From NCBI GenBank assembly GCA_018475625.1, contig JAAKEZ010000001.1, positions 124,001 through 188,000 of the forward strand: a DNA stretch of 64,000 nt, in the 5' to 3' direction. The notes beneath the pieces are model-generated. The model was not told where the DNA came from. It searched no databases and saw only the letters and a list, made by a program, of their open reading frames with translations. Position 1 is the first letter of the stretch; each line of letters opens with the position of its first letter. Positions 10,505 through 37,167 of this stretch are shown here, piece after piece. This DNA comes from Candidatus Bathyarchaeota archaeon A05DMB-2. Its GTDB lineage: Archaea; Thermoproteota; Bathyarchaeia; Bathyarchaeales; Bathycorpusculaceae. The position numbers and the translations under genes were made by a program.

Positions 10505-11350
10505 TCAAAGGGTGAGTTTTTGCAGCGTTGTTATGGCGTAATATGTGTCTACGAAGGTGGATATTCCGAGGTCTGAACGGGCGAACCCTCCATTTTTGTT
10601 CTGGCACTTTAATACCCACTCAATTGTCTGAGAAGGATACCGTGTCTTTTCGCCGAACAGGTCCAGCGTCATAATACCATAATACGTGTGTTCCATGTAG
10701 GGCATAATACTCTCTGGCAATACTGTGAAGCCGCCGTACGGTTTTTCGCATGACCGCACAAACTCTACGACTCCTCGCGAGGCTTTCAGGTCAAAGTTAA
10801 GCAGTCTCAGTGAAGCAGCAGCGTAGAATGTGGAGTTGATGTTAGATTGACCTTGCGTTCCAAATCCACCATCTTTATTTCTGAAACGAAGAAGCCAACG
10901 GATAATTTCTCGCGTTTGAACGTCAATTTTAAGCAGATCAGCCAGTTCTAAAGCCATGAACGTTGTTATGAACTCTGAAGGAACTTCGGAGAAAACTTCC
11001 ACTGAACCAAAATATTTTTCTGAGCTAAGACGCGAAGCAAGTCGTTCTTTAAAGGTTTTTTCAACCTTTACGCCGCAAAGCTGCAAAGCCTTAGCGATAT
11101 AATAATCAGAGTAGATGCTGTCCAAGTTAAGCGCATTCAAGAATCTAATGGTCTTTTGAAGGTTAGGAAGACACGCTTTTAGAGAGTTTAGAATAGCTAG
11201 CCCATAGTACGTGTCTTGAGCGCTTGATTCTGTGCCTTGAGCGAAAGTGTAGCCGCCATCTTCATTCTGCCGATTAACAACGTATCCTATTACTTTGGCA
11301 ATCAGCGATTGGGCGTTGCCGCGACTTCCTTCAACCAGCCTATTCATCAC
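10505..11350 (-). CDS. Prenyltransferase/squalene-cyclase-type alpha/alpha-toroid repeat protein
   Basis: 281 residues made of about five repeats with the QNxxGGF-type signature: RQNEDGGYTF, FRNKDGGFGT, KPYGGFTV and CQNKNGGFAR, each followed by a helix with TYYG or TFYA. This is the toroid fold of protein prenyltransferase beta subunits and terpene cyclases. I do not see the zinc-ligand D-x-C...H set of true prenyltransferases nor the DxDD of squalene cyclases, so catalysis is doubtful. There is no signal peptide. It is the first gene of the operon with the DUF6062-like and MFS genes. Its role is unknown; a binding or scaffold function is possible. Confidence 0.75.
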   Translation of the reverse strand: MMNRLVEGSRGNAQSLIAKVIGYVVNRQNEDGGYTFAQGTESSAQDTYYGLAILNSLKACLPNLQKTIRFLNALNLDSIYSDYYIAKALQLCGVKVEKTFKERLASRLSSEKYFGSVEVFSEVPSEFITTFMALELADLLKIDVQTREIIRWLLRFRNKDGGFGTQGQSNINSTFYAAASLRLLNFDLKASRGVVEFVRSCEKPYGGFTVLPESIMPYMEHTYYGIMTLDLFGEKTRYPSQTIEWVLKCQNKNGGFARSDLGISTFVDTYYAITTLQKLTL

Positions 11351-11572
11351 TCTTCCACCTTGAGCCTAGATAGAAGCTATCAGCCTCTGCCAAATTGATG
11401 GCACAGGCGGTTAAAGGCGAGCCTCATCGCCCTTATCTCAGCAAAGGTGCGACCAAGCAATTAAGCATTTCTTCCCCAGTATCCACATTTCGATGGTGCG
11501 CAGGGGCGAATTATTAAAAGGCTTAAGAGAAATACCTGAGATAAAGAAGTGTACGTTAAGGATGGGCAAAAT

Positions 11573-12853
11573 ATGAAAGCCGTAATCTTAGCCGCTGGCG
11601 AAGGTGTGAGGCTTCAGCCAATAACCTCCACACGACCGAAGCACCTAATAAAGGTGGCTGGGAAACCGATTCTTGAACGCTGCTTGGAAGCGGTGAAAGC
11701 CGCGGGAATCAGCGAAGCAATCGTAGTCACGCATTACATGGGCGACGCCATCCGCCGGTACTTCGGCGCAGGCGAGACACTGGGGTTAAAGGTGGAGTAC
11801 GTTGAGCAGAAAGCGGTGCTTGGAACGGGCAACGCGGCGGCAGCGGTTGAGCCCAGCGTGGACGACGATTTTGTTCTGGTTTACGGAGACCTGCTCTTCG
11901 ATTCAGATGTGGCGAAACACGTAATTGACTTGTTCAGGACGGAGAAGCCGGCGGCGGTTATGACTGTGGTGCCTGTGGAGCATCCTGAAAGCTACGGCAT
12001 AGTTGAGCTTCAAAACGACAAGACGGTCAAGCGCATCGTAGAGAAACCCGCCGCAGGCGAGGCTCCGTCAAACTTGGCCAATGCGGGACTGTACGCCTTC
12101 TCTCCCGAAGTCTTTGACGCATTAAGACAGGTGAAGGCTTCTGTCCGGGGCGAGTGGGAACTCACCGACGCCATCTCACTGCTAGCCAAACGGGGCAGCG
12201 CAGTCTTGGCTGCGCAAATCGCCAAGACGGATTGGATGGACATCGGCAGACCCTGGGACCTGCTGGAAGCGAACAGTTGGGCGCTCCGGCGGATGCAGCA
12301 TGAAGTTTACGGGAACGTGGAGGACGGCGCACACTTGGTGGGTCCAGTGACAGTAGCGGAGACCGCGCGAATCCGCTCTGGCGCGTACATTGAAGGACCA
12401 AGCTTCATCGACGAGGGTAGCGATGTAGGACCAAACTGCTACATCCGCGCGTGCACAAGTTTGGGCAGAAACGTACGGGTTGGCAACGCCTGCGAAGTCA
12501 AAAACAGCATCATCATGGACGGGACACATATTGGGCACCTATCCTACGTGGGCGACAGCATAATCTGCGAACGCTGCAACTTGGCGGCAGGCACCATTAC
12601 CGCTAATCTTCGGCTGGATGATGGATCCGTGAAGATGCTTGTGAAAGGCGAAGTTGTGGATACTGGAAGAAGAAAACTTGGGGCGATTCTGGGCGACAAC
12701 GTCAAGACAGGGATAAACGCGCTCCTAATGCCCGGCGTGAAAGTTGGAGCCAATAGTTGGATAGGAGCAAACTTCACGGTGCACAGAGACCTGCCAGCAA
12801 ACACTTTCGCACTGCTAAAACAGGAAGAAGACATACACGAAAAAAGCGAGTAA
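11573..12853 (+). CDS. GlmU-like bifunctional sugar-1-P nucleotidylyltransferase / acetyltransferase
   Basis: 426 residues from ATG 11573 (GGATGGG just upstream; the open frame to 11549 is less likely). The N-terminal half has the nucleotidyltransferase signature LAAGEGVRLQPIT with RPKHLIKVAGKP, YGDLLFDSD (metal-binding Asp) and EKP. The C-terminal half from about residue 250 is a left-handed beta-helix with isoleucine-rich hexapeptides and an ANLRLDDGSVK segment as in archaeal GlmU. Such enzymes acetylate glucosamine-1-phosphate and form UDP-GlcNAc, a precursor for N-glycans and lipid-linked sugars. In archaea the exact sugar can differ. It stands alone in the plus direction. Confidence 0.85.
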   Translation: MKAVILAAGEGVRLQPITSTRPKHLIKVAGKPILERCLEAVKAAGISEAIVVTHYMGDAIRRYFGAGETLGLKVEYVEQKAVLGTGNAAAAVEPSVDDDFVLVYGDLLFDSDVAKHVIDLFRTEKPAAVMTVVPVEHPESYGIVELQNDKTVKRIVEKPAAGEAPSNLANAGLYAFSPEVFDALRQVKASVRGEWELTDAISLLAKRGSAVLAAQIAKTDWMDIGRPWDLLEANSWALRRMQHEVYGNVEDGAHLVGPVTVAETARIRSGAYIEGPSFIDEGSDVGPNCYIRACTSLGRNVRVGNACEVKNSIIMDGTHIGHLSYVGDSIICERCNLAAGTITANLRLDDGSVKMLVKGEVVDTGRRKLGAILGDNVKTGINALLMPGVKVGANSWIGANFTVHRDLPANTFALLKQEEDIHEKSE

Positions 12854-12954
12854 CAACGTTTCTCAATGCCTTCATTTAGCAGTTGCTTTTTTATCCGTCC
12901 TTTTTTACGCAAGTTCTTTGCCTAGTGCCTTGCGTTTCTTGAGAAGCCAGCCTA

Positions 12955-13027
12955 TTTGGCGCCTAATAGTGGTTTGTTGCAGAAATCTATAGAGGGCCTA
13001 TCGTTATTGGCGCAGAAACACGCCAAA
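12955..13027 (+). repeat. 73-bp repeat element with inverted-repeat ends, copy 1
   Basis: The element begins TTTGGCG and ends CGCCAAA (perfect 7-bp inverted ends). Bases 12970-13018 are identical over 49 bp, in opposite orientation, to 34999-35047. An internal stem GCGCC...GGCGC with AATA/TATT is possible. No ORF is inside. It lies in the 364-bp gap 12854-13217 between the GlmU-like and winged-helix genes. The rest of that gap holds an A/T-rich promoter element near 13170 (CAATTTTTAAATCC) and nothing else that I can support. Confidence 0.75.
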
Positions 13028-13217
13028 CATGATGAAAACGGTAGGAGGAAGGGTCAACAAGCAGAGCAAAGGGAGAGTGCCTTCAGACAATGCATGGCTC
13101 TTTTGAATAAGGACCTATAGACTGCTCCGAGCAAGAGTTTCCAGCCTTCCTTAGCAAAATCCTGTAAGCGCAATTTTTAAATCCTGAAGCATAGAGTCTT
13201 TAAGAAAGGAATACCTA

Positions 13218-18339: not shown

Positions 18340-18837
18340 AAACGAAGTTTCTCTCCAGCCTCTTTCTTTCGTCTCACAAATTCCTAATTTATAGTTTTTC
18401 AAGCCATCTCAAAACGTCTCTCTGAAGTGTCTACTCCCTCTCTTTATTTAAAGAGAGAAAGCATGTGGACTCAGGAGCGGAAAAAGACTTCATCCGCAAA
18501 GCGTCGTCGTACCTCGATTTCCTCATCGTCCAAAGCAATAGAACACAGCACAAGTTTATTTGCATTTTCAGTTAGGGTAAAGGCTGGATAGAACCCTGTC
18601 GGAAGGGGGAATTGGGTGAACTGGATCAATAAGCCTTAAATCTGCGTATTGCCAAGGTAGTAGGCTTAGTGTAGGAATATTGAACAGAAAAACAAGGTTT
18701 TTGTCTGTTGCATGGCTTCTGCTTTCCTTCACGTTAAATTATGACTTTAAGCCACTCTACTGCACCATAATGGCTGAACATAGGCAAGGAAGCCTAAAGT
18801 CCATACTTCACAGACGCAAGTAAGCATCGCAACTTTT
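18340..18837. other. Long intergenic region with hairpins and a possible small ORF
   Basis: About 500 bp without a convincing gene. Two hairpins are visible: a near-perfect palindrome CTCTCTTTA-TT-TAAAGAGAG at 18438-18457, which could end the 18112 gene, and AACAG/CTGTT plus AAAAAC/GTTTTT at 18683-18709. A 52-codon minus-strand frame at 18471-18629 is listed separately. The promoter of the NosD-type gene follows. Confidence 0.4.
18471..18629 (-). CDS. Possible 52-residue protein or gene remnant
   Basis: A minus-strand frame from TTG 18629 (AAGG about five to eight bases before it) to TGA 18471. It encodes a plausible mixed sequence with NANKLVLCSIALDDEEIEVRRRF. The composition looks coding rather than random, but I recognise no family and it has no neighbours in an operon. 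It could be a small unknown protein or the C-terminal remnant of a lost gene. Confidence 0.25.
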   Translation of the reverse strand: MIQFTQFPLPTGFYPAFTLTENANKLVLCSIALDDEEIEVRRRFADEVFFRS

Positions 18838-18878
18838 GTCAAGAAAATTTGACCGAGGCTTCGTCAAGAAAACTTGAC
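18838..18878. promoter_or_regulatory. Tandem 16-bp palindrome pair upstream of NosD-type gene
   Basis: Two copies of the motif lie 25 bp apart (start to start): GTCAAGAAAATTTGAC at 18838-18853 (one mismatch in the palindrome) and GTCAAGAAAACTTGAC at 18863-18878 (perfect). They are followed by AAAAAACCCTTTATCC, a likely BRE/TATA region, and the ATG at 18926 is 47 bp further on. The same arrangement precedes the genes at 35158 and 37168. The position next to the TATA box suggests a site for an activator or for a repressor that blocks TBP/TFB. Confidence 0.7.
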
Positions 18879-18925
18879 AAAAAACCCTTTATCCGCCGAA
18901 TTCTCCCAATCTATGTGGGAACTTC

Positions 18926-29820: not shown

Positions 29821-29992
29821 TTTTGATTGCTTGCCGGTTATAAGTCTGTCGGCATACGAATTTTTTACGGAACCCTCATTTTGGAGCCTAATAGAATTCA
29901 TTACAGAAACTTGTAGAGGATAGGTCTCTATTGACTCAGAGAGACTCAATAGCATGTTGAAAATCCTAACATTGCATATCTGGAAACCGCCA

Positions 29993-34829: not shown

Positions 34830-34989
34830 CGCAAACACTTTTTCCAAGTTTTCTGGGTTCTGTCGGAACTAATGTACAGTTTTTGTCTGTAGCTCTCTTA
34901 TTTAAATGGATTCTACATGTCGCTGAAGATGCTCTCCTCGCTCTGAGTGACTACCCCTACCTTATTTGAAACACCAGTTTTCAACATGG

Positions 34990-35061
34990 TTTGGCTGTTT
35001 TCTGCGCCAATAACGATAGGCCCTCTATAGATTTCTGCAACAAACCAGCATAGACGCCAAA
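34990..35061 (-). repeat. 72-bp repeat element, copy 2 (inverted)
   Basis: The reverse complement starts TTTGGCG and ends AGCCAAA (six of seven bases inverted), as in copy 1. Bases 34999-35047 match 12970-13018 exactly on the other strand. The stem base GCGTC/GGCGC keeps pairing through a G-T wobble where copy 1 has GCGCC. The element is in the 328-bp gap 34830-35157 behind rpl10 and ends ten bases before the tandem palindrome promoter of the gene at 35158. The rest of the gap, 34830-34989, shows nothing further. Confidence 0.75.
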
Positions 35062-35070
35062 TATGATGTA

Positions 35071-35111
35071 GTCAAGAAAAATTGACTAAGACTTGGTCAA
35101 GAAACCTTGAC
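35071..35111. promoter_or_regulatory. Tandem 16-bp palindrome pair upstream of 35158 gene
   Basis: GTCAAGAAAAATTGAC at 35071-35086 and GTCAAGAAACCTTGAC at 35096-35111, again 25 bp start to start. They are followed by AAAAACGCTTTTTAG, a probable BRE/TATA region. The end of the second copy is 46 bp before the ATG, nearly the same as for the gene at 18926 (47 bp). This spacing conservation is the main reason to treat it as a functional site. Confidence 0.7.
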
Positions 35112-35157
35112 AAAAACGCTTTTTAGAAATATCCAGAGCAAAATTAGTTGATAACCC

Positions 35158-37045: not shown

Positions 37046-37053
37046 AAGAGTTA

Positions 37054-37113
37054 GTCAAGAATTCTTGACTAGAAAAAGGATACTGCTGGTTTGTTTTGTC
37101 AAGAAATCTTGAC
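37054..37113. promoter_or_regulatory. Tandem 16-bp palindrome pair upstream of 37168 gene (wider spacing)
   Basis: GTCAAGAATTCTTGAC (perfect palindrome) at 37054-37069 and GTCAAGAAATCTTGAC at 37098-37113. Start-to-start spacing is 44 bp, not 25. The second copy is followed by GGAAACTTTTTTATCGCG, with the same T-rich element as the other two promoters, and the ATG is 54 bp beyond. No extra copy is visible between them. Confidence 0.65.
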
Positions 37114-37167
37114 GGAAACTTTTTTATCGCGCGAATGAACCAGTGGGAATAAAACTGGGGAACATCT

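Follow-up and report, generated by a model that had tools for sequence, protein, structure and literature searches.

Our data show that the repeat at positions 34,990 to 35,061 is one copy of a short, multicopy, intergenic element that is confined to a single family of Bathyarchaeota and patchily distributed there, that synteny between sister species breaks at nearly every copy that can be mapped, and that the copies themselves are mosaic. The repeat family is previously undescribed and found only in this one Bathyarchaeota lineage; no description of it was found in the literature searched, coverage of which was incomplete. We consider it likely that the copies form a lineage-specific family of non-autonomous, modular, interspersed DNA repeats that recombine with one another and thereby reshuffle the chromosome. 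They are best filed as new repeats of this kind, unusual in that most mappable copies lie at breakpoints.

Within the window, by which we mean the whole 64-kb stretch of DNA analysed here, the initial annotation had reported two copies in opposite orientation with 49 identical bases, and alignment confirms this: 49 contiguous bases (TGGTTTGTTGCAG...GGCGCAGAAA) are identical between copy 1 at 12955-13027 on the plus strand and copy 2 at 35061-34990 on the minus strand. The homologous stretch extends to 106 bp at 85.8% identity (E 3e-28; 12935-13039 against 35079-34977, aligned within the window), a match far above chance for 64 kb. The inverted motifs TTTGGCG and (C/A)GCCAAA are present as had been claimed, but they are internal and do not form the ends of the repeat unit, because homology runs past them on both sides. 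Copy 1 consists of a 46-48 bp core, module A (CCTATTTGGCGCCTAATAGTGGTTTGTTGCAGAAATCTATAGAGGG; 12950-12997, plus strand; C20:136950-136997 with the nhmmer family profile, E 2.3e-14), a module B placed by alignment (CGTTATTGGCGC-loop-CGCCAAACATGATGAAAAC; 13002-13039, plus strand), and modules C (CAGAGC...) and D (TTTTGAATAAGGACCTATAGAC, then TGCTCCGAGC) at 13040-13132 on the same strand, with D 128 bp downstream of A and in the same orientation. Copy 2 has the corresponding modules on the minus strand, with A at 35020-35066 (nhmmer, C20:159066-159020, E 3.7e-7), B at 34977-35015 by alignment, and C and D (ATTTAAATAAGAGAGCTACAGACAAAAA) at 34880-34976, where D lies 137 bp downstream of A, again in the same orientation. 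A third, weak and degenerate copy that is absent from the initial annotation occupies 29876-29964 on the plus strand, its module A spanning 29876-29921 (nhmmer, C20:153876-153921, E 3.9e-4; 69% by blastn) and its module B (...CAATAGCATGTTGAAAAT), placed by alignment, 29922-29964. A pattern match at 18425-18453 on the minus strand may mark a module D (CTTTAAATAAAGAGAGGGAGTAGACAC) that stands alone, with neither A nor B beside it, and a survey of D positions found solitary D-like sites elsewhere as well.

The window also holds a second repeat family, made of paired palindromic TTAGTCAAGAAANNTTGACTAA-like units at 35065-35120, 18838-18883 and 37051-37116. Such units occur beside copies L006, L012, L043, L049, L053 and L118, often directly adjoining the repeat studied here, and are possibly operators or some other extragenic palindrome. 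Rfam RF01734, a fluoride riboswitch aptamer, matches at 11364-11440 on the minus strand with 46.3 bits, upstream of minus-strand genes starting near 11350.

Searched by BLAST against the window's own assembly (G000; 2,477,615 bases in 110 contigs), the 73-bp repeat proved to be a dispersed family, with DNA matches at 40 places in these 2.48 Mb at 75-92% identity, and the core pattern TTGCAGAAANCTATAGAGGG matched 43 times, compared with no match for the reversed pattern used as a control; the repeat is thus not limited to the two copies first seen. In this genome it is a short non-coding element in 40-43 copies that range from 46 to about 220 bp. The sister genome (G001) has 55 core matches and G033 has 49. 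Among 84,980 species genomes the core pattern gave 85 matching stretches, 80 of which are in Candidatus Bathyarchaeota, and the other five are without the remainder of the module. Pattern-positive genomes account for 23 of the 163 in the order, all in the window's own family, and the genomes of the order's other families among these 163 gave no match. Distribution is patchy even within one genus, g12, where members with 52, 20, 17 or 9 copies stand beside many with none, and IMG/VR and phage records gave no pattern matches. When genes were called by a simple method based on codon usage, 146 of 147 copies proved to be intergenic, and the genes flanking these 147 copies represent all four orientation classes. 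The contigs carrying L014 (G000:C1) and L042/L087 (G003:C42, JARYLR010000048.1) are 100% identical for 1.6 kb, until the shorter one ends, although they are assigned to two genera, g1 and g3, within one family. One of the two assemblies probably contains a mis-binned contig, which would account for the only repeat copy in G003.

Anchored alignments of the 147 copies reveal a polar and modular element in which a core module A frequently precedes a diverged module B and then C and D. Module A is about 46 bp long (range about 44-50 bp) and sharply bounded, with conservation rising at position -27 before the anchor and dropping past +18, the anchor itself having been used for selecting copies. It starts with a near-palindrome, CTATTTGGNNCCTAATAG (CTATTTGG-NN-CCTAATAG), which is flipped in some genomes, and ends in TTGCAGAAACCTATAGAGGG. 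In G000, G001 and G025 it is followed by module B (TATTGGCGC-loop-GCCAA-CCATGTTGAAAAC-AGAGGGGAGGGG), which seems to be a divergent relative of A; in SQ and SKW11, most A modules have no other module beside them. An optional C region and module D (TTTAAATAAGG..GGCTATAGAC) come after A/B, and wherever D is close to A it lies 70-137 bp downstream in the same orientation. Module composition is therefore variable in a fixed order (A alone in SQ, A+B, A+B+C+D), and tandem and chimeric arrangements of modules are common.

Synteny blocks between G000 and G001, compared over stretches of some contigs of both assemblies with G001 read in part, terminate at repeat copies in both genomes. Among the 18 copies of G000 for which both flanks map to G001 sequence, synteny is broken at 16 and collinear at 2, and in the reverse direction 15 copies of G001 are broken and 2 collinear, one indel having been recounted; about half of the copies have one mapped flank or none and stand outside these counts. 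Repeat-free gene junctions, on the other hand, were broken in 3 cases and collinear in 67 (n=70), and in the reverse direction in 1 and 71 cases, respectively. Fisher tests of copies against repeat-free junctions gave p values of about 1e-12 and, in reverse, 6e-14, which are indicative only because the mappable copies are not fully independent. One inverted block (C17 163442-191205 in G001, C20 69201-86102 in G000) has an inverted pair of copies as its two boundaries in either genome. Polarity is kept, since left flanks match left flanks and right flanks match right flanks between the genomes. As far as their titles show, all genomes compared are metagenome assemblies, in which some joins could be wrong; against mis-joining stands the limited identity of most copies (75-92%), and the 'k147' in the contig names of the sister assembly would denote a k-mer longer than most copies.

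One candidate breakpoint, G1_L060, was reclassified as collinear, being an indel that takes in a segment the size of a gene as well. At the collinear site G001:C17:168650-169360 versus G000:C20:80526-80656, G001 carries an extra gene-sized segment plus modules A-C and G000 retains a D-like remnant only, so that about 590 bp bounded by the repeat have been gained or lost.

Breaks were also seen in a second genus (SQ, SKW11), where copy L083 joins the flanks of two different SQ copies, L133 and L098, the flanks of L143 lie on two separate contigs of G129, and three further copies match on one side only, with no collinear copy seen. For copy 1 of the window, orthology with G001 ends precisely where module B does, at window position 13039, the match to G001:C12 covering query 1-1440, or window 11600-13039. 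In G033 copy 1 has its two flanks on separate contigs, with another copy about 180 bp from the right flank, and copy 3 is split and inverted; copy 2, with only one flank that maps, is uninformative. Two copies tested in genus g12 lie in collinear regions, and thus a copy need not be a breakpoint.

Among recombinant copies, the flank to the left of A is closer to the left partner in 16 of 17 cases (16:1), and the flank to the right of the element is closer to the right partner in 15 of 17 (15:0). Module A is mixed (5:5 for left versus right partner), and module B sides with the left partner in 4 cases and with the right one in 7. The fact that the flanks track different partners while A and B are mixed indicates that the parent switch lies inside the element, where it can be placed within A-B at a resolution coarser than one position. 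A version of A specific to G001 (TGGTTGGTTGCAGGAACC) spans about 44 bp and is common to copies that have different flanks and different B modules. Identical copies of 132-134 bp with unrelated flanks are present, and the boundaries of recently duplicated copies differ from pair to pair. In genus g12 a copy of G109 is missing from collinear sites in several relatives, which is the pattern that an insertion would give. No target-site duplication was visible in the recent duplicates or at the one readable empty site, where the flanks have diverged, and the empty site L278 was unreadable because its intergenic sequence has diverged.

From these observations we infer a low-rate, non-autonomous spread combined with in-register recombination between copies. 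The copies would be non-autonomous mobile elements that spread at a low rate, and pairs of them would recombine in register with their polarity kept, which would lead to inversions, exchanges and the homogenisation of A. Homologous recombination would be the default route, and a low-specificity archaeal tyrosine integrase could realistically take its place, given that the IntpTN3 enzyme of Thermococcus nautili causes chromosome inversions and recombines segments down to 104 bp in length (PMC5495485). The frequent inversions that scramble closely related chromosomes of Thermococcales are a close parallel, but the segments recombined there need not come from a repeat family and the enzyme is known (PMC5495485), whereas the Bathyarchaeota breakpoints fall at a specific repeat family. 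Against our explanation, neither a target-site duplication nor an autonomous partner nor a direct record of movement was found.

The suggestion of the initial annotation that the repeat could be a miniature mobile element holds in part, as it is short, dispersed, non-coding, intergenic, multicopy and patchy, and relatives have a collinear site lacking a copy, but the signs of a classical MITE were not seen, as the inverted motifs are not termini and neither a target-site duplication nor an autonomous partner was found. A classical MITE would be an insertion sequence with an internal deletion, moved in trans by a transposase that recognises its terminal inverted repeats, and we regard this origin as possible, if tentative. 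The identical copies with unrelated flanks, and the occupied and empty sites in genus g12, are what such an element would leave. However, TTTGGCG/CGCCAAA lies inside the unit and is poorly kept (its inner positions pair in 23-26 of 47 copies), module combinations vary, the boundaries of duplicates differ, and, at the copies examined, no transposase gene was seen lying between repeats. Prokaryotic MITEs, including those of Sulfolobus and Haloquadratum, are the closest known elements in size and spread, being likewise short, non-coding, multicopy, apparently non-autonomous and patchy (reviewed in PMC10969869); the Bathyarchaeota repeat differs in that neither terminal inverted repeats at its real boundaries nor a target duplication or a related insertion sequence was found. 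Inverted pairs of copies 2.6-2.7 kb apart in G001 were also considered as a composite transposon, which was rejected as the enclosed genes are housekeeping genes and not transposases; by our own reading they comprise a SecY-like membrane protein, ribosomal protein-like ORFs and a translation factor-like ORF.

It is rather doubtful that module A is instead the target of a putative recombinase that actively shuffles chromosome segments, with dispersal being incidental. Such a role would fit a module that is sharply bounded, polar, near-palindromic on one side, within the size range of recombinase sites and homogenised independently of B and of the flanks, as well as the finding that almost all mappable copies in one genus pair are breakpoints despite being short and diverged. 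G000 encodes 24 tyrosine recombinases, several of them 0.5-1.3 kb from a copy. These enzymes are nevertheless equally present in repeat-free relatives (all 20 genomes tested encode them, with or without repeats), the repeat-rich G033 has only 4, and their closeness to copies is just mildly over expectation (8 of about 37 within 2.5 kb, about twice the expected number). Furthermore, the crossover is not limited to A, given the mixed ancestry of B, and polarity is preserved by ordinary homologous recombination too. A dedicated recombinase for the repeat is therefore possible but unproven. The tyrosine recombinase genes 0.5-1.3 kb from a copy are located at C35:150353-150820, C49:85280 and C17:210318 in G001, at C20:283519, C43:34891 and C44:14931 in G000, and at C33:504355 in G033, mostly upstream of the copy and in the same orientation. 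If this reading were true, dozens of dispersed 46-bp A sites and a putative archaeal recombinase or low-specificity integrase would reshuffle Bathyarchaeota gene order, and the architecture of these chromosomes would be set by a selfish or domesticated repeat-recombinase system.

A structured RNA family, be it a small RNA, a cis-regulatory leader or a terminator, is very improbable. The initial annotation had raised a small structured RNA and taken a G-T wobble in copy 2 as a hint of selection on RNA structure, and module B can indeed be folded as TTGGCG/CGCCAA in many copies. Nevertheless, RNAalifold over 47 A+B copies found no consensus fold (0.0 kcal/mol, z 0.24), the terminal stem that had been claimed does not form in about half of these copies, two-sided compensatory changes are essentially absent from it, and the top-scoring column pairs for mutual information in module A are not base-pair-like; Rfam gave no match at repeat copies. 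Because the folding, stem, covariation and Rfam tests are all null, the wobble in copy 2 is no evidence for RNA selection, a single wobble being the expectation under drift. A cis-regulatory element (leader, terminator or promoter) was rejected because the orientation to neighbouring genes is random, and module D as a promoter of the next gene was rejected because that gene often sits on the other strand. As part of our preferred explanation of recombining interspersed repeats, the element probably acts as DNA rather than as a folded RNA.

Least probable of all, and highly so, are REP/BIME-type palindromes spread by a Y1 (RAYT/IS200) transposase, which are likewise short extragenic palindromes in tandem, clustered and chimeric arrangements, but PF01797 had no match in G000, G001, G002 or G018 while control profiles did, so that the window's genome and its sister have no Y1 transposase and this reading was rejected. 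In architecture, the closest known system is the pneumococcal BOX element (boxA-boxB(n)-boxC), which is also composite, modular, short and intergenic with a variable number of modules, and whose mobility is inferred with its enzyme unproven (PMC3049150). BOX elements have terminal repeats resembling ISSpn2 and a predicted RNA secondary structure (PMC3049150), whereas the Bathyarchaeota repeat has no consensus fold, belongs to another domain of life and sits at chromosome breakpoints.

These repeats also carry a warning, as short-read assemblies may fragment or mis-join at their copies. Bathyarchaeota are abundant, mostly uncultured archaea of sediments, and the evolution of their chromosomes is, to our knowledge, little studied. 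A repeat family that lies at most of the mappable breakpoints between sister species provides a concrete sequence handle on gene-order change in these organisms, and it makes the question of the responsible enzyme directly testable.
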